Shown here: in pieces, positions 9,054-32,618 of the stretch
How positions within the stretch are numbered: the stretch's first letter is position 1
How the letters are laid out: each line of letters starts with the position of its first letter
NCBI GenBank assembly: GCA_015501595.1
Contig: JADNRX010000237.1
Location: forward strand, 1 to 64,000
Direction of reading: 5' to 3'
DNA: 64,000 bases
From: Hymenopellis radicata
Lineage: Eukaryota; Basidiomycota; Agaricomycetes; Agaricales; Physalacriaceae
Position numbers and translations under genes: made by a program
The notes under the pieces: model-generated
What the model saw: only the letters and a program-made list of their open reading frames with translations
Told to the model about the DNA's origin: nothing
Database searches by the model: none

Positions 9054-11176
9054 CTACAGCGAGAGACAACCAAAGTCTTTCAAGATTCTAGCCCATCTAC
9101 TGTCCTTACTGCCTAGACCATTGAGAAGATCAAACGCGTTCCACTCCGCGTTAGCGCGCGCCTCAATCATATTCGGGTATAACAGAGGAACCTTGACCAC
9201 CGCCATCTCAAGATCCTTCAGCGCAGATGCGGGTATAACAACTCCGTCTATCTACGATGGCAGGTCAAATTAGAAACATTCTGCCAGGGGAAGAAAAAGA
9301 GTGCCCTACCTTCTGCACCCGCCACGCCAAATTCGCCCTCAAGTACTTCTCCACGTCAGCGTCGTTCAGACCCTTCTGTTCCACCAGTTTCGTAAGATTG
9401 ATGAAACCCTCTGAAAGAACGTTCAAATGGTCGACGCAGTTTGGGCATCGCTCTGGCTGCGAATTAACGAATTCGCTGTGCGTGCCGACCAGCGCTGGGG
9501 ACGTGCGCCAGTTGGCTACAGAGGTCGGCGGGGCACCACAGAAAATGAGAATAGAGTAGCTCATGCGAAGAGCGTACTTCCTAGTTCGGATACGAAGGAT
9601 CCAATCAGAATGCGACTGGTCCTTGGCGAAGAGAGGTATTCGAATGGGGGCCAACGAACGAGTCAAAGTACTTTTGGCTGAGGTCAAAGACTTCTCGTTG
9701 TCGCTCGGATGGGTTTCTTCTCCATACATTTCGTCGACAATTTTCACTATCGCTGAGCGCATGTCGTCCTTCGGATGAATCCCAACGAATTCCGGGTATG
9801 TGAAGTTAAGCTCGGTCCAATCGCGCAAGGCAGAGCTGGTAGCGCGAAAGAAGGACGTAGGGGTATTCCAGAAGGGAAGCAAGTCTGGAACAGAATGTGT
9901 TTGTTCGCGAACAAACATGGATGCAAGGAGGCGTACCAATATCAAGGTGAGATTCAGGCACCCATTCTTGAGGATGGATAGTCTGCCAAAGAGAGAATAG
10001 ACGATCGACCTATAATGACTTGTTAAGAAGTGTCCAGATACTGTACGCCTTTGAACATACATTGGTGTGATGCAACCAAAATATGGGGTCGTAGGCTGTC
10101 GTAAAGCACATCAGCTACTTTCTACTCGGAGCTTAGAAGGAATTGTAACCTACCAGCCGCGTCTTTAGCACCCATCTGACCGCACCCACCGATACGATCA
10201 TGCATACCATTGTGTATCTGTTCGAGGCTGTTTGCAACTGCATCTGATTGTGAGATCGATTGGCCAATATGCAGCGAAGCGCATACATACAGGATTCTTT
10301 AGACGTACTGGTATTGCTGAACTGTTCCCAATTCTTGGTTCGAAGCAACATGTCATGTGTGTCCTTGCGAATGTTCAATGCACCAGCCAGAAGGTCCCTG
10401 TAAACAGATTGGCACCAGGCAGATTGAGAAGAAGGACACTCACTCTTTCAAGGCTTTCAGACTCTTCGCATCATCCCTGGGTTTCATCGGATGTCGAGCA
10501 GTTTCAGTAGCGACTTCAAAGTCTGGCTTCGGGTGGTAACGATATGAGAGAAGGGGGTTTGGAACGGAGACAAGGGCGTCCTCGGACTCTGGCGTAAATA
10601 TCTCAACCGTTTTCAGTTCGGTGACCTCGGGGGGAGGAAGATGGTTCGTGGCCCAATCCCAATATGGCGAACGCAGATCGTTAGCGGCACGCGTCCACGC
10701 GTCCCGGTTGTTCTGGTATCTCGCCGCTATTTCTCGTGCGCACCCTTGAAGCGCTTGCTGTAGATGATTCAGTCACACTTTAGGACGCGAGTGATGAGAG
10801 ACACGGTACCTCAAATAGAGAAACGTAGGCTCTATGCCAGACTGGAAACAGTACTGTCGAATGTGCGCAATAAAAGTAGGACGGCTTCTTCAAAGCGTCT
10901 AGGACAGGCGGTGCGTCGGCCCACGGAACCTCAGGGAGCGCGTGGATGCCGCCTATGCCAAACCATGAAAGTGGGTCGTCTTGGCTCCGCGCGGTAAGGG
11001 TCTCTTGAAGGAGAAAGTCAGTGTCATGGAGGACACGCCATTGTCGACTCACGTAGCGCTTGGATGTACAAGGAAAATTGGACACGGTCTTGAATAAGGT
11101 CGACTATATCGCGACGTGGCGCGACATTTGTTTGGAGACGCGGGCCAGTGACAATGGGATGCATAGTCTGAGACAT
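9054..11176 (-). CDS. Tyrosinase (polyphenol oxidase), type 3 copper enzyme
   Basis: It oxidises monophenols to o-quinones, leading to melanin. The chosen start gives MSQTMHPIVTGPRLQTNVAP, then DRVQFSLYIQAL as in Agaricus enzymes. CuA histidines are in GIHALPEVPW, YCAHSTVLFP and VWHRAYVSLFE. The cysteine of YCAH matches the thioether-bridge cysteine. SPYWDWATNHLPPPEV follows. CuB histidines are in SLEQIHNGMHDRIGG and AYDPIFWLHHTNVDRLFSLW, so all six ligands are present. The tyrosine motif NFTYPEFVGIHP marks the end of the core. A C-terminal lid domain with WILRIRTRKYALRMSYSILI and LAWRVQK follows, as in latent mushroom tyrosinases. No signal peptide is seen, fitting a cytosolic enzyme. About nine exons; the last joins at IDGVVIPASALKDLE and ends ILKDFGCLSL. 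The exact 3' splice choice is less certain than the core. Confidence 0.94.
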
Positions 11177-21718: not shown

Positions 21719-22333
21719 CTAACACGCCACTGGTTCACCATCACCATCACCATGGCGATTCAACACCCGAGTTTGGTCATCGTGGCGCAACTTGACATGG
21801 CGCGCCAGTGCAACCTTCCTCCCAAAACCGTCAGCACAAAGTTTGCACTTGAACGGTGTGAGTTCGGGGTGCGATTTCCTGTGCTCTAGATTGGGCTTCA
21901 GAGACGCGCTAAACACGGGCACACAAAAGGACTCACCGATCAGCTTGTGCTTGGCAGTAAATGTCTGCACGCATTTTTCGCACTTGTAGGGCGCAACATG
22001 TTTCCTGCGGTTCGCGTGCACCTTTTTGACTGCGTCAGACGGGGTATTCTTTCGGGACCGGCCGCTGGTACGCTCAGGCAAGGGACCAGTGGGCTCCCAC
22101 TTCAACGCCGGGATTTCAGTTAGCAGCCTTGGGTATTGCGGTGATAAGGGGATGCTAATAAATTCGGACTGGTTGAAACTTGGAGATAAGTGTAGGCTTG
22201 GGAGGACTGAATCCTCAAAGCTGGGCATGATGAAGCTTTGAAGGCCGAATTCTTCAAAGCTGGTACCTGAGTCCCTGGGCATGATGGGGCCTTGAAGGAT
22301 CACATTCTCAAAGCTGGTACCTGAATCGCTGGG
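21719..22333 (-). pseudogene. C2H2 zinc-finger part of a split kinase-zinc-finger gene, array copy C
   Basis: Minus-strand frame open from the transposon edge at 22333 to the stop at 21719. It begins PSDSGTSFENVILQGPIMPR and carries a short internal duplication (SDSGTSFE then RDSGTSFE). Then come PERTSGRSRKNTPSDAVKK and finger 1, YKCEKCVQTFTAKHKLI. A phase-1 intron of about 55 bases splits the finger before EHRKSHPELTPFKCKLCADG and LARHVKLRHDD. The end is GDGDGEPVAC. It is the closest relative of copy K. No start codon of its own is needed: the frame runs straight into the kinase segment if the transposon and one target-site copy are removed. As it stands the gene is split by 3.2 kb. A later start at an internal ATG could still give a short finger protein. 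Confidence 0.75.
22325..22333. repeat. Target-site duplication of element 1, left copy
   Basis: ATCGCTGGG lies directly outside the left terminus of element 1. The identical nine bases flank the right terminus at 25546-25554. Confidence 0.85.
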
Positions 22334-22340
22334 GGGCTAT

Positions 22341-22460
22341 CATATTTTACCGTGGCACCTACCGTGGTGCCGTGGCCATTACCGTGGCCGTTACCGTGGA
22401 CAGCACGGTAGTGCTACAAGATCACCGTGGGCAGGGACAAGGGCTGACCCTGTACCGTGG
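22341..22460. repeat. Left subterminal array of ACCGTGG words, element 1
   Basis: ACCGTGG and close variants (TACCGTGGCA, CCGTGGCC, TTACCGTGG) recur at short, irregular spacing. Orientation is mostly inward. Confidence 0.85.
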
Positions 22461-23340
22461 GCGTCACAGCGTTATGCAGCGATGTCACAGCGTTATGCAG
22501 TATCGTAACGCAGTCGTAACGCGCTCTTAGAAAGGTCTCCATAGTCCAGCATACCTAGAGAGAATACAGCAATGTCTTGACGGCGCGCGTGAGTGAGTAT
22601 GATCTCCCAAATCGGGTAACCGCGAATAGCCATGTGGCCAATGTAATGCTCGGGTCCTTGATGAACGCGGCTTGATCTTACACCATCATCGTTGAATGCA
22701 GAATGCGCTTCGACGCGATATCGGTACATCTCTTTGAATATGACTTCATTCCTCTTCAGCATATGTGCTCTCTTGTGTATTTGACATGTTTCTTTGATGA
22801 CTGCCGGTGAATTCGGCCATGTTGATTTCTGTCCTCATTTTTGGCTACTAACCTTGACAACAATGTCTTGTACACATTCCAGTGCGCGAGTGCGATGTTA
22901 AAAATTATTGTGAGTCACTGATCTCTTGCCCAAGGCAGTCCCGCACTATTTTTATAGGGAAAATACGGTCGTTTCCTCGCGAAACAGCTTGGAAACAGCT
23001 TGAGCGCTTGGATCCGGACACCGGACAGACCGCGAACTCGGAATCTACAAGTTCTGCTGACTTGTCTGTGGATACGGCAAATAGGAGCACTCTTGACTCT
23101 CTCTTTCCAATCTATGATGCTTCTGGTAAGTGCAATTGACTGAAGATTATATAGGCTATCTCAGGCCATTTAATCGGTTATTCCTTGGCTCCTCCCGCGA
23201 CCAAGGTGCTAGGAAATGCACCTCGTTCCTCCCGTTCCTCTTATAGATCACGCAAAACGGACGATTTGGACGAGGCAATGGTGAAATCGTCGACCGCGCG
23301 GCCTTGATCAACGTCTCCGATATTCAAACGTGCAAAGGAT

Positions 23341-24990
23341 GGAACATTTGTTCAAATTCAACGTGTTGTGAAGTCTGGAACCCGAGTCCTGAAACGGGTT
23401 CTCTCTGACGACGAGTCTGACACTCGTAAATCGGACTCTGACCATCGCCGTGTCAAGAAGCGACGGTGTGGCGTCGTCTCCTCCCGGGTTGGGATGTCGT
23501 TGAAACGCAGACTTTCACGCACTGAATCCTGCAGTACCGACTCTGATACTCACCACCATCGCTCATAGAAAGCCCGGCACACTCGTCATATCTCTTTTTC
23601 GAAAAGACAGGAACAGTCCGATCATGATACGGACAGTAGCATGTCCGTTGACGAGCTTCGTCACTCTAGAAAGCACCGAAGTGTTACCTCTTCGTCTTCT
23701 AAAACCACTTCACGCGGCCCCGTCCATCTGACCTTCCACTCTCGTCCTGCCGTCGAGCATGACTCCAAATCCAAACTCCCCGATCCTCCGCCTTCTACGA
23801 AAATTTCAGGCTGTGGCGACGAGCCCATAAACTCGGCACTTCTGTACAGGAAGGGCGAGAAGCTGGAGGACACGTGGGATGGTTATCCGGATGGCGACTT
23901 CACACTCGACATTACACATGACGTGTTCGCAAAGACAAGACGGTACATATGGCCCCTCTCTTGCGACGATGGCGCCTCCTTTCCTTAATGCTGGACGGGT
24001 TAATTACTAGCGTGATAAGGTGAAGCGGGTGGCCAACATCTCTGGGAGCCATTTCCTCCGACTCCAATACGCTGTATTCAAGAAGAATCGACCTGGTTTC
24101 GTTATCCAGGAACATCTCGATACGGAGATCGTGATCTCTATGCAAGGCGAGTTCATGAAAGCCATGCTTAAACTATCAATGACCGTCCCCTAAACGGGAT
24201 GGTCTCTGATGCGGCTCATGGGTGGTGGCGTGTTCGGAGCGATCTCTTGATTGTCACCTCCGTTTATTATGCGTTCTTGTGCTGCTGGGTTCCCGCGTTT
24301 TTCAATGGAGCGTCTGCTGAACACTTTGAATATCATTTCTATGCACTCTTCAAGAGTATACACAAGCAGGCAGCAAATAAAGACCTCGCTCTCCAGGTAG
24401 AATGGCTCGCTAGTGTGCGTACTTGTTGTATACTTCGTTTACTTTCTAATCAGGTGTTCTAGGTCATCGATTTCAGTGAAGCCTAGCGTACGGGATTCCT
24501 TCTTGCATATGTCCTGTTCTCCGGCGAACAGGATAGCACTCGTACGGCGGCTGAACGGGGAAGACATTGGCAGGAGAAACTCGCTTTGCGCCTGTTGACG
24601 TTGGCTTGGAGGCAATCCAGATCCTGGAGGACCGCATGTTTTCACTCGAAGGCTGCAGGGATTGCTGGTAACCGCCAATGGGGGCTCGACGCCGGTCATC
24701 ATCAAGATGGATGGTCGCCGTACCATCAGGAGTGTCCATCATGGAGTGATGATGCGCGCAAAGATCACGAAGTTGAGGTATGTACTCGATGTATTGCTTC
24801 AATGTCTCACAAGTCTGAGATGGACTACATTGATCTCAAGAAAGCGGACGACAGTCCTTCACCACGACAAGTGCAAGTCTTAGAGCGGAAGCGTCCAAAG
24901 CCGCGACAAAGTCGAAAGTCGGACAAGGAAAGAACCTTAGTAGATCACGGCTGCAGACCGCCGTACACTTTGATGGGATATTAGATATTG
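23341..24990 (+). pseudogene. Decayed protein gene carried by element 1
   Basis: Plus-strand pieces in shifting frames. They include a basic/serine region (VKSGTRVLKRVLSDDESDTR), then LEDTWDGYPDGDFTLDITHD, RDKVKRVANISGSHFLRLQY, VISMQGEFMKAMLKLSMTVP and SAEHFEYHFYALFKSIHKQA. Around 24600-24760 the frame PVDVGLEAIQILEDRMFS shifts to AAGIAGNRQWGLDAGHHQDG. The last two blocks match the frame carried by element 2. Several stops and frameshifts make it non-functional. I do not recognise the family; it is not an obvious transposase, so it may be cargo or a diverged element protein. Confidence 0.6.
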
Positions 24991-25147
24991 GTACACGCAC
25001 TAGATATAAGCTCTAAGCTTGTGTTTATAATCAAACCTCACTTACAACTCAAACCCCCAAAAGCTACGACCGAATCAACAGCTGATCGACAGAGTGTAAC
25101 GCCCTTGTCACGCCACTGTCACTTCCCATCACGCAGCATCATGCCCG

Positions 25148-25310
25148 TGCGTACTACCGTGGGGCTACCGTGACTACCGTGGGGCACTACCGTGGCCGTA
25201 GACGTTACCGTTTCAGTACCGTGGCCTACCGTGAGCCGTTACCGTTACCGTAAAATGGTCTACCGTGGTACCGTGGCCGCTACCGTGGCTACCGTGGTCA
25301 CGCCGTTTTC
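25148..25310. repeat. Internal array of ACCGTGG words, element 1
   Basis: Dense TACCGTGG/ACCGTGGC/TTACCGT words placed between the decayed coding region and the right end. The same relative position is occupied by an array in element 2. Confidence 0.85.
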
Positions 25311-25477
25311 CGTGAAGTCGATATTACACATTTTTGAGGTAGAAATACATCCTTACAGGTAATTGACATTGAGATATGTAGTATACAGTGTCATCTCTAC
25401 ATCCTACGGTACTTGAATGCTGGGTACACTACCAAAATTCATCAGTTAAGACAGCGGGCAGTGGGCTCTGTGGCTGT

Positions 25478-25535
25478 GCTACCGTGGTTCCGTGGCACGG
25501 TACCGTGGACCACACGGTAACGGTAACGGTAAAAT
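25478..25535. repeat. Right subterminal array, element 1
   Basis: CTACCGTGG and TACCGTGGAC turn into inverted words CGGTAACGGTAACGGTAAAAT at the right terminus, mirroring the left end. Confidence 0.85.
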
Positions 25536-25545
25536 CTTGCTGCCC

Positions 25546-25554
25546 ATCGCTGGG
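25546..25554. repeat. Target-site duplication of element 1, right copy
   Basis: ATCGCTGGG, identical to 22325-22333. It encodes the end of PSD in the kinase frame. Confidence 0.85.
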
Positions 25555-27054
25555 CATGCCATTGACAGTGAGTGTTGGCGGATGGAACCCGGATAGTATT
25601 TGGGAAGGGGATGTCCAGTCTGATGAATAATCTGTGACCTGAAAGGTGGTACCGAGGGCCTTCAATGACGAAATGACGATGTGGGTAGTAGGCCGCTCTT
25701 TTGCACTAAAAGACAAGCACGACATCACCAGGGACCATAGCTGTTCCGAAGGAAACAAATTAGTAGACGGCCGAGTATCTAAACGTGAGCCGTTGACGGG
25801 TTGTACAACAAAGTTGAAATTTAATCACATACTTCGATAATCGTGCACCCAAAGGAGTATATATCCAGTGCAGTAAAATAATCGTTCTCAAACAGAGAAA
25901 AATTCATCATTTCGGGGGGAAGCCATCGAAGAGAGCCTCGAAGTTCCATTGCAGAGCTCCCCGGTGAACGTGATTCAGCCAAGAGAGCGAGACCGAAGTC
26001 TGCCAGACAACAAGACCAGTCATTCTTGACGAGAATATTGGCCTGCAGAGAGGTAAATCAACCGGCTTGAACGGTCAGAATTGCTTACTCCTTTAATATC
26101 GCCGTGAACAACTGGGGGATCGAAGTCGTGCAAGTACTGTATGCCTTCCGCTATTTCAAGTATCTGGGATAAGTTTGGCCTCAGTAGCGCGGCTTAGGCT
26201 TGGAGTGCACGTACAGCCTTCATGCGATCATGTTCTGGATTCCTCTGTAGGAATTCCATAAGACTTCCGTTCTTCATCCAAGGTGAAATCAGGCAGAGCC
26301 GTGAAGCAAAAAGTTTATCGCTCATTCCAAAGAAAGGAAGGATGCTCGGGTGACGCAGTTGCCGCCAGAGAAGAGCTTCACGGCGACAGTCCTACATCGG
26401 TCGCCTTTTCAGCCTGCTTCACGCGGCACCAGCTGATATGAGACGTACCTTGAACAGCTCGCTGGCATTGTAACCGCCAGCGAAGAATCTCAGGACCTTG
26501 AGGGAAACAGTAGTTTGCTTCATGGAGCCTTTCCAGATGTCCTGTGAAATAATTCGTCAAATAGTACTATGACAATTCGGCAATCGAAAAATAGCTAACC
26601 GCGAACCCCCCGCCACACACTGGATGGTTCCCAGATATTTCCGCACTCTGACAGAAGAACGACGATGGTACAAGATCATAGCGTTCCCCGAGAACACGCA
26701 GACACCTCAGGCATTTCATACGATAGCCGGACGTGTCACTCCGAGACACATCGTCGGAATCCAATTCCTATTGTCCAAGAGATGTTAGCACGATTATCTA
26801 GATTTCAAATAGCTTTGGTGGCGCACAGTCTGTAGAACGTCCATCACTGCCTGAGACAGTTTTCGATCGAGACGAGATACAAGTGTTCTCCAAGGCGCAG
26901 GCAAGGACGTTAATATCGTCCTGCACTGTGAGACGAGGCGCTCTTTATTCTTTTCCGAGCTGAAGAGGTCGGACCACTCCATGAGACGCAATCGGTGGAT
27001 GTGGTATGTGATGACAGCAGTGCGACCTGTGCTGCTGCTGCAGGCCCCCATCAT
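25546..27054 (-). pseudogene. Protein kinase (tyrosine-kinase-like type), 5' part of a split kinase-zinc-finger gene
   Basis: Start MMGACSSSTGRTAVITYHIH. About seven exons with introns near 50 bases. The ATP-site lysine is in TVSLKVLRFF, the catalytic loop is VVHGDIKGANILV (HGD instead of HRD, common in this group), DFG is in LADFGLALLAE, and the activation segment end is RGSLRWLPPEMM. The C-lobe end is FPSEQLWSLVMSCLSFSAKE. Between DIYSFGCTIIE and RPSTNLF the frames do not join: the expected intron leads to I-L-G in another frame, and about 25 residues of the alpha-F to alpha-G region are missing, so this domain looks damaged. The frame then runs LKALGTTFQVTDYSSDWTSP to NGMPSD, exactly at the transposon edge, and would continue into copy C. 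Confidence 0.8.
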
Positions 27055-30491: not shown

Positions 30492-32618
30492 TCAACGTTG
30501 CTTTAGCTTCTTACGAGGCTTTCCCACTTTAGGATTAGGACCGTGTTGATTGCGCCAATGTCGTTGAACGGATGTCTGATCGCGATAAACGTTTCCACAC
30601 ACCGGGCATCTTGGGGGAGGTCCGCCACCGTGCTTTTCTCGCGTATGACCTGAGAAGCCGGTTTCAACGAACGCTCATTACATCCAAGAGAAGAAACTTA
30701 CGAACTAAAGCACTCTTGATAGTGTAACCGCGGTGTGGTGAACATTTCTGTGCAAAAATAGCGAGGCTGGATGTTAACCTTGCGCATTTTCTGCTGTGCC
30801 CCGGGTCGTGTTTCCGTGTGCCTCGTGTCTGCTTGCAGCCCATACGAAGGACTATAGTGCCAGGTCCTGCTAAAGCAGTTTCGGAGCTAGGCGACGCCAC
30901 GTGAGGGACTGGCATGGTTGGTGCCGCAGACGTAGATTCGAGTCCGTGGGCACACGTTGTCCGCAAACATATAAGATTGGCGGACTCTCTAAACTCGCGT
31001 CGCCCAAAGCGTTGTTAAGAGCATTGTACTCCGCTGAGTCCTGTGGCGTCGGAAAGAAGACCCCGTCGTAGCTTTGGGAGGACGCCGACAGTGCAGTCAG
31101 AGTCTGGTTACCCACCAGGTCCTGCGTGTCAACATGCAAATGCAGATCATTGCCATCAACGAGATTATAATGCTCTGGCGTTCCTGATGGCGCCATGGAA
31201 TTAGCCTGAGTGGTATATGTCGACGGAACGTCAAAATACTGGTACCCAGATTCAGGTCCTTGCATCTGGGTCCCATGTCCATGTCCTGTGGTATTGGGCT
31301 GCGAGTTGTTAACTTCGGCAGCAAAGCTCCCGGGTTCGGGAGAGCTAGAGGATACATTTGGGTATCCCACGCAACACTAGGAGACGACGGAGGACCATGA
31401 ACATCAAGCGCCATTCCGAGGGAAGACGAATCAACCGTCGAGGGAGCCATCGCTGGTGCCATATGTGATGGTGCGTACCAATGACTCGAAGGAGCGCCTG
31501 AGGAAATCGACGCGCGGTCCTCAGGCTCTTGGAGCGCATTACTCAAGGAACTCGAGTTTCCCCGTACAATAGGGCATCTGTTAGCAGGCACCGCATCGTA
31601 TGTGTTTGACCCCAAGACAGACTCTGAGTGGCGGTGGTGGAGCATGCCAGGGATTTGCCTAGACCATTGACCAGCCGAGTCTGAGTGGCGCCGCATAACC
31701 GTACGATCGGCTATAGGTATAGAGAGTCGGTCGGAGGAATCGTCATTGGCGGGTGATGGATATCCTGAATGCGAGTACGACGAGGAGGACGTAGAGGGCA
31801 GAGACGCCATGGCCGACTGGGCTTCGAATCCTTCACCAACATGCAAGTTCTTCATATCCGTGATTATGAGCGAATCAGAAGGACTCTGACGGTGAAGGAT
31901 GGGACGTGGGGGACGCCGTGGTACGTGAGATTCGGAATGCCGACGACCCGAGCTGTACGCCTCAGTATGCATAGGCGGCTGGAGGTAATACTGAGAAGAC
32001 GCGTTGGAGTAAGGGTCGGAGGGAATGTCCAGCGCCTGCTGGAAGTCCGACTGGTTCCATGTCTGTTCAGAGAACGCCGGCTGACGCGATACTGCGTCGT
32101 CCTCGTTGTCCGAGGCTGTAACTGAACGGTCTGAATGAGAAGATGCGACAGTGAAGGCAAGGTAGACGCACAAGGATCCTCGTCAACAGTAGACGACGTA
32201 ACACCGAACGACTCAAGGCTACCACTCCACGCACTGTCAGACTCTGGAACATAGGACTTGATGAGTACTACGCATGAAGACTAGCCTTCACGTACCGTTG
32301 GAAACTCTTCGCTGCGACCAAACAGCACTCCCCCCCATCATCGCTCCCTCTGTCCCCGATGCATAACCGCTACCGCTATAGACGACCCAGGTCAGTACGT
32401 CGTAGCAAAACCCGGCAACACATAACGCACGGAGATAGCTGCACGAGTCCGGCGTCGTTCTGGAGATAGAAAAAATGCTCCTCTCGGTCAACAGCAGGAG
32501 CATAGCCTTCATCGACGTCCATGCCAGTAGAGCCAGAGGTAAGGCGACGCCTGGGCGAACGAACCTTGCTCTCCCCGTCAGCGTTATGATTTGGAGGACG
32601 ATACGGAAGGCATGTCAT
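30492..32618 (-). pseudogene. C2H2 zinc-finger gene, array copy E, with probable frame breaks
   Basis: Start MTCLPYRPPNHNADGESKVR, then GSGYASGTEGAMMGGSAVWS and ESDSAWSGSLESFGVTSSTV. A 41-base intron beginning GTGCGTC is followed by YRSVTASDNEDDAVSRQPAF. Motifs RRHSES, RRHSDS and HRHSES recur. Near 31370 the coding frame shifts from ALDVHGPPSSPS to NVSSSSPEPGSFAAEV without a convincing intron. In finger 1 the first cysteine lies in RYFCTE, but the second, CSPHRGYTIKSALV, is in another frame, one base off. A phase-1 intron then leads to RHTREKHGGGPPPRCPVCGN and YRDQTSVQRHWRNQH, ending RKKLKQR. Two breaks suggest recent decay or assembly error. Sister of copy D. Confidence 0.68.

Follow-up and report, generated by a model that had tools for sequence, protein, structure and literature searches.

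A probable relic of a kinase–C2H2 zinc-finger junction, interrupted by a transposable element, in Hymenopellis radicata

Results

We examined a 64,000-nucleotide stretch of the genome of Hymenopellis radicata (hereafter the window), a mushroom of the Physalacriaceae described from decayed wood (PMC8480192); the strain is probably IJFM A160. The window represents contig C560 of an assembly of 75.5 Mb in 1,405 contigs, in which both haplotypes are held as separate contigs. A protein kinase gene is followed on its minus strand by a C2H2 zinc-finger gene, which we designate ZF1, and a transposable element with terminal inverted repeats (TIRs) lies between the two (Table 1). An earlier note on this DNA had read the locus as a kinase–C2H2 fusion gene split by the element.

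The window kinase is represented by a deposited kinase-like protein of H. radicata (P0001, 310 aa), to which it is identical over the 242 residues compared. A hand-spliced draft of the kinase matches the Pfam model PK_Tyr_Ser-Thr with an E-value of 1.2e-28 and scores 100.6 and 94.9 bits against PF07714 and PF00069, above the respective cut-offs of 23.1 and 31.7; both models are also in the precomputed list for P0001. The catalytic motifs are present as GGGFA, VSLK, HGDIKGANIL, DFG and PPE, which we take to be the glycine loop, the VxLK lysine, and the HxD, DFG and (A/P)PE motifs. Exon-level comparison with its own genome gave 174 matches to this kinase.

ZF1 has been deposited separately as P0121 (170 aa), which matches the window at 100% and begins, as placed by hand, at the ATG at 22282. 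Pfam similarity supports the kinase and the C2H2 assignments made in the earlier note, with the correction that the note had read through the intron that splits finger 1, which is spliced out in P0121. Without this intron the zf-C2H2_4 model scores 29.6 bits (cut-off 27), whereas with the intron retained the score of 19.9 bits is under the cut-off, and the pattern C-X2-C-X12-H-X3-5-H is present (CEKCVQTFTAKHKLIEHRKSH). The N-terminal part of ZF1 is encoded by two direct repeats, and the start of a third, consisting of CATG plus the target copy, is found on the kinase side of the element. This provides a further ATG at 25557 (MPSD), four codons before the element boundary, which could be the start codon of ZF1 itself. 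When 100 candidates from a protein search with ZF1 were scored, the only two matches were from H. radicata (P0121 and P0122, the latter discussed below), with none outside this species at E ≤ 1, and the N-terminal part found no match besides itself in the DNA of its own genome.

The element is a TIR DNA transposon, having inverted-repeat ends, a target duplication and dispersed copies with the same ends. DNA matches to it occur in seven other contigs, several of them extending to query position 1 or 3212. Flanks were checked at four of these seven contigs: duplications flank the copies on C763 (GGAAAGTAC, 9 bp), C543 (GCATCGGTTG, 9–10 bp) and C567 (CTTTTGAAGGTCC, 13 bp), and the two flanks read for the C330 copy do not correspond. 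The C567 copy contains, in a 5.2-kb stretch, one open reading frame (ORF) of at least 120 aa (182 aa), which is not transposase-like by eye, no family scan having been made. Decayed open frames within the window element (…GEKLEDTWDGYPDGDFTLDITHDVFAKTRRY…; 23380-24985) are likewise not transposase-like by eye and are possibly captured host sequence. An Rfam scan of the window at gathering thresholds gave no match.

Table 1. Coordinates of features at the kinase–ZF1 locus (positions in the window)
Feature	Position	Strand	Basis or remark
First coding exon of the deposited kinase model (MEWSDLF…VLQT)	26827..26982	minus	P0001 read onto the window by hand
Kinase body	25833..26767	minus	splicing by paralog comparison, agrees with P0001
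Exons of the kinase body	26767-26600, 26541-26449, 26391-26215, about 26163-26089, 26042-25833	minus	
Site lacking 82 bp of the paralogs (C-lobe, after DIYSFGCTIIE)	25775..25776	minus	paralog alignment
Out-of-frame end of P0001, 17 residues, ILGRLLICFLRNSYGPW stop	25725..25778	minus	
Remnant of last kinase exon plus linker (LWSLVMSC…SLKAL…TDYSSDWTSPSQILSGFHPPTLTVNGMPSD), in the frame that meets ZF1	25546..25740	minus	needs acceptor AACAG at 25741
Linker (TDYSSDWT…PPTLT), ~85 bp, common only to the window and C461 in this genome	25568..25653	minus	
Right 9-bp target copy ATCGCTGGG	25546..25554		
TIR element, 3,212 bp, ends GGGCTATCATATTTTACCG / GGGCAGCAAGATTTTACCG, TACCGTGG-rich subterminal repeats	22334..25545		
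Left 9-bp target copy ATCGCTGGG	22325..22333		
Two 54-nt direct repeats coding MPxDSGTSFE…, N-terminal part of ZF1	22221..22328	minus	
C2H2 gene ZF1, intron 21936-21886 (51 nt)	21719..22324	minus	stop at 21719
Finger 1 (CEKC…HRKSH), split by the 51-nt intron	21869..21988	minus	by hand
Finger 2 (CKLC…HVKLRH)	21782..21853	minus	

Reading of both frames confirmed that no stop interrupts the kinase-side frame between 25740 and the element edge at 25546 (LWSLVMSC…VNGMPSD) and that the C2H2-side frame is open from 22324 (SGTSFENV…), with the 51-nt intron, to the stop of ZF1. It was also correct, as the earlier note had proposed, that removal of the 3,212-bp insertion together with one 9-bp target copy restores the phase: the two frames are continuous at the reconstructed empty site. 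Since copies of the element elsewhere share its ends, the juxtaposition of the kinase and zinc-finger sequences predates the insertion. The Met-Pro repeat start on the kinase side hints at the same order, weakly, with just four bases (CATG) outside the target copy. The deposited kinase model is read in another frame than the one that abuts the element, and no intact kinase frame runs into the joint in the window.

The kinase itself is damaged in its C-lobe. We aligned the relevant exon with paralogs on C615 (L041), C681 (L043) and C461 (L040 plus L039) and with a partial copy on C615 (L042). Of the 174 own-genome matches, these are the closest and the only ones aligned at this exon. All four loci that cover the exon contain extra DNA at 25775/25776, amounting to 82 bp in L039, L041 and L043 and 81 bp in the partial L042. 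Splicing at the acceptor that keeps the frame of the paralogs (25779/25778) shifts the window frame, which then reaches a stop, and P0001 ends in the out-of-frame ILGRLLICFLRNSYGPW because this splice site is used and the 82 bp have been lost. The alternative acceptor AACAG (25741/25740) keeps the phase and drops about 40 residues of the C-lobe. A complete C-lobe in a single frame is, in consequence of either the frame shift or the loss of about 40 aa, absent from the window kinase. The ratio of nonsynonymous to synonymous substitution rates (dN/dS) in the kinase body is 0.39 for the window against C615 and, across the four exons of equal length, 0.45 against C681, which indicates moderate past constraint. 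The C681 copy is 96% like that on C615, of which it is probably an allele, and carries a one-base difference in the fifth exon that shifts its kinase frame.

Beyond the C-lobe, homology of the kinase to C615 and C681 stops at 25653. The linker that follows occurs at just two places in the 75.5-Mb genome, the window and C461, which differ in linker length by 9 and 3 nt. Linker substitutions comprise six nonsynonymous and one synonymous change and hence give no sign of constraint, and dN/dS for the end of the C-lobe plus the tail is 1.0. A loose text search for the origin of the linker among the related kinases listed returned P0069 and P0115, both unrelated on inspection. On C461, where homology to the window kinase extends to 25568, just upstream of the ATG at 25557, the linker continues into a tandem pair of finger-like exons, the frame being free of stops if two similar introns, of 51 and 54 nt, are spliced out. 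These exons are about 88% identical not to ZF1 but to the window's C2H2 gene at 30614–30766, and the finger region is decayed. An in-frame stop and an internal stretch of about 12.2 kb of extra DNA likewise break the C461 kinase. This extra DNA (C461:108.0-120.2 kb; L040, L055 and L039) is devoid of terminal repeats in self-comparison. One kinase tail therefore precedes two different C2H2 genes, in phase both times, and both copies are broken.

In random sequence with the local dinucleotide composition, a frame of 32 codons is open in 24% of cases, one of 64 codons in 6% and one of 130 codons in 0.2%. If ZF1 starts by itself, just the 32 codons that separate the end of kinase homology from the ATG at 25557 have to be explained, so the open frame argues only weakly for a fusion. 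Two neighbouring genes could have come to lie close together and in phase by chance, with translation of ZF1 initiating from an ATG of its own, at 25557 or 22282, and the stop of the kinase tail decayed. In favour of this reading, the probability of the open link is 0.24, to be multiplied by one third for phase, an ATG stands four codons before the element, kinase homology on C461 ends just before that ATG, and the window contains several C2H2 genes on the same strand. However, only about 96 bp separate the end of the C615/C681 homology from the ATG, which is tight for an ordinary terminator plus promoter, and the frame of the linker is kept at a second locus; overall we consider a chance arrangement improbable.

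The other haplotype of the window, C606 (L045, L046 and L048-L054), is collinear, with gaps, with window positions 10893–64000 (about 53 kb); the individual aligned blocks are roughly 86–99% identical. It carries several large insertions or deletions, including a deletion of ~4.9 kb at the kinase/ZF1 locus, where window position 26754 is followed on C606 directly by finger 2 (about 21866–21780), and this in turn by 21428. C606 retains the 5′ part of the kinase gene and finger 2 but neither the kinase domain nor the linker, the element site or most of ZF1. Because remnants of both genes remain there, the difference appears to reflect a loss on C606 and not a gain in the window. The deposited product of this locus, P0122 (212 aa; L046 around 1658-2287, C606:61.16-61.79 kb), is itself an in-frame chimera of the N-terminal part of the kinase with finger 2. 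C606 was considered as an allelic empty site and was rejected after whole-length comparison, the site itself being gone. The deletion implies that the locus would be dispensable on at least one chromosome set.

The haplotype comparison also bears on whether mis-joined haplotigs or a collapsed repeat created the junction or the 82-bp loss during assembly. Such an artefact might be feared where both haplotypes are present as separate contigs and where, as seen here, homopolymer-length differences occur between copies. Against this stand the collinearity, with gaps, of the window and C606 over some 53 kb, with remnants of the kinase and ZF1 at the expected places, the presence of the linker at a second locus, and other copies of the element with duplications of the usual kind. 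We regard an assembly artefact as very improbable.

To survey relatives, we took a protein search with the kinase part, which gave 3,361 candidates, 506 of them at E ≤ 1e-10, and examined the best 120 of the 506, drawn mostly from genera of the Agaricales. The kinase with a C-terminal C2H2 pair that the earlier note had proposed to look for in related genomes did not emerge among them: the C2H2 pattern was found in none of these 120. With a query combining the kinase end, linker and ZF1, 906 candidates were scored and none reached E ≤ 1, and no fungal kinase–C2H2 fusion turned up in searches of open-licence papers.

The alignment reaches the end of the C-lobe in 107 of the 120 relatives, and 40 of these extend at least 100 residues further. 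Besides kinase-like models and TCAD9 (two members), Pfam recognises a different domain in each of eight of these 40, namely RhoGAP, response regulator, KN homeobox, homeodomain, bromodomain, PAM2, Cation_ATPase_N and PHD, pairings that rest on deposited gene models, some of which may be false merges. The C-terminal domains include the homeodomain and KN homeobox of P0009 and P0037 (Desarmillaria), the bromodomain of P0028 (Mucidula) and the RhoGAP of P0017 (Hymenopellis); P0050 has a C-terminal SH3 domain and P0090 an N-terminal NPHP3_N domain, and some long extensions are a second kinase domain (e.g. P0003 and P0054). Two of the pairings were traced in genomic DNA. The PHD of P0002 scores 22.1, just under the cut-off of 24, and 28.1, above it, in the frame read from C681, where an uninterrupted frame of 452 codons leads from within the kinase C-lobe through the PHD, with 238 codons from SLKDL to the PHD. 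For P0017, one match on C618 covers residues 281–466, from the kinase C-lobe into the RhoGAP, at 99% identity, with one TAG reported inside. As a lead, then, the C-termini of this kinase family carry a striking variety of partner domains, of which several are nuclear.

The window also contains a cluster of C2H2 genes across 12.3-50.3 kb, mostly on the minus strand, several of which apparently have an intron inside a finger. Pfam detects fingers near 20.7, 21.8, 27.5, 30.5 and 49.4 kb, and finger-like ORFs were recognised by eye near 12.3, 14.8, 33.8 and 37.8 kb.

Discussion

Our analysis indicates that the locus is probably a decayed chimeric junction, a relic rather than a working fusion protein. 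The earlier note had concluded that the fusion existed before the insertion. This holds for the juxtaposition, which is the older event, and does not extend to a working fusion, in view of the 82-bp loss, the separate deposition of P0001 and P0121, the ATG at 25557 and the broken state of the C461 copy. A working kinase–C2H2 fusion later split by the element is not supported, because the kinase frame is broken, the two parts are deposited as separate models and the searches made brought no intact relative to light.

Several observations weigh against reading the locus as a relic. The acceptor at 25741/25740 has what looks to us like a good branch site and a good pyrimidine tract (CTACTAATTTGTTTCCTTCGGAACAG), so that a shortened in-frame kinase reading into the C2H2 part is conceivable before the insertion. 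The frame of the linker is kept at both loci, each insertion or deletion being a multiple of three. In addition, the probable alleles on C615 and C681 differ by four nonsynonymous changes and one synonymous change, which leaves the present-day constraint on the family uncertain. A rival reading, close to that of the earlier note, is a genuine kinase–C2H2 fusion that was functional until recently, perhaps with a short C-lobe produced through 25741/25740, and was then inactivated by the element. The empty site is in phase, C461 has the same linker followed by C2H2-like exons, and kinases of the family are elsewhere joined in one frame to a PHD or to a RhoGAP (with one TAG inside the RhoGAP match). 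On the other hand, the C-lobe of the window kinase has lost 82 bp and the deposited models are separate, the best 120 of the 506 kinases are devoid of the C2H2 pattern, and C461 uses a different C2H2 gene and has a kinase with an in-frame stop and its large block of extra DNA. Taking these together, we regard a recently functional fusion as unlikely and favour the interpretation of a decayed junction.

If the locus is such a relic, a plausible order of events starts with a paralog from a TKL-like kinase family expanded in this lineage, with a C-terminal tail of ~25 residues, which would have been placed directly upstream of, and in frame with, a clustered C2H2 gene, perhaps by a rearrangement inside the C2H2 cluster. 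The combined transcript may once have encoded a kinase–C2H2 protein. The kinase has lost 82 bp of its C-lobe exon, judged from its paralogs, and, either before or after that loss, a TIR element lacking an evident transposase inserted at CCCAGCGAT and generated the 9-bp duplication. What the locus encodes today is, going by the deposited models, no more than a 310-aa kinase that is truncated and ends out of frame, plus a C2H2 protein of 170 aa as a separate product. On C606 the two remnants, the 5′ part of the kinase and finger 2, would mark a deletion.

Had the junction worked, a kinase with its own DNA-binding domain would directly link phosphorylation to a site on the chromosome. More broadly, we tentatively suggest that in the Physalacriaceae and their relatives this TKL-like family may act as a mobile N-terminal module that has repeatedly captured DNA- or chromatin-binding domains (PHD, homeodomain, KN homeobox, bromodomain and, twice, C2H2) as well as signalling domains (RhoGAP, SH3 and response regulator). 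The window would then represent one capture caught between birth and death, with one kinase tail placed on two C2H2 genes of the same cluster type. The family could be used to test the rate and lifetime of new domain pairings, and whether chromatin- and DNA-binding partners are over-represented among them.

Several features of the locus can be compared with known systems. Mutator-like (MULE) DNA transposons of fungi have terminal inverted repeats and generate 9-bp target duplications. The element described here shares both properties, but no transposase was found in it and the duplications at its copies measure 9, 9, 9–10 and 13 bp, leaving its class unproven. A publication on DNA transposons of fungi (PMC12730594) does not, in the part available, name a family whose duplication measures 9 bp. 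ZF1 resembles a standalone C2H2 gene at 49.4–50.3 kb of the window, which has an allele on C606 and belongs to the same finger family (PERTSGRxRKN…KCEKC.QTFTAKH; 73% DNA identity over 501 bp). Unlike ZF1, this gene has a long N-terminal part of its own and no joined kinase frame was seen.

Many TKL kinases are reported for Laccaria bicolor (Kosti et al., 2010; PMC2838846). As in the TKL-like expansion of the Agaricomycetes, the window kinase matches PK_Tyr_Ser-Thr and has its 174 own-genome matches, whereas this copy differs in lacking part of the C-lobe and in adjoining a C2H2 gene. A further comparison is with the kinase–PHD protein P0002, encoded on C615 with its probable allele on C681. 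This close paralog, at about 87% DNA identity, also carries a C-terminal zinc-binding module, and the C461 kinase is slightly closer still to that of the window (88–90%). The module of P0002 is a PHD, however, and that of the window is C2H2, and on C681 the kinase frame is shifted upstream of the open frame that leads into the PHD.

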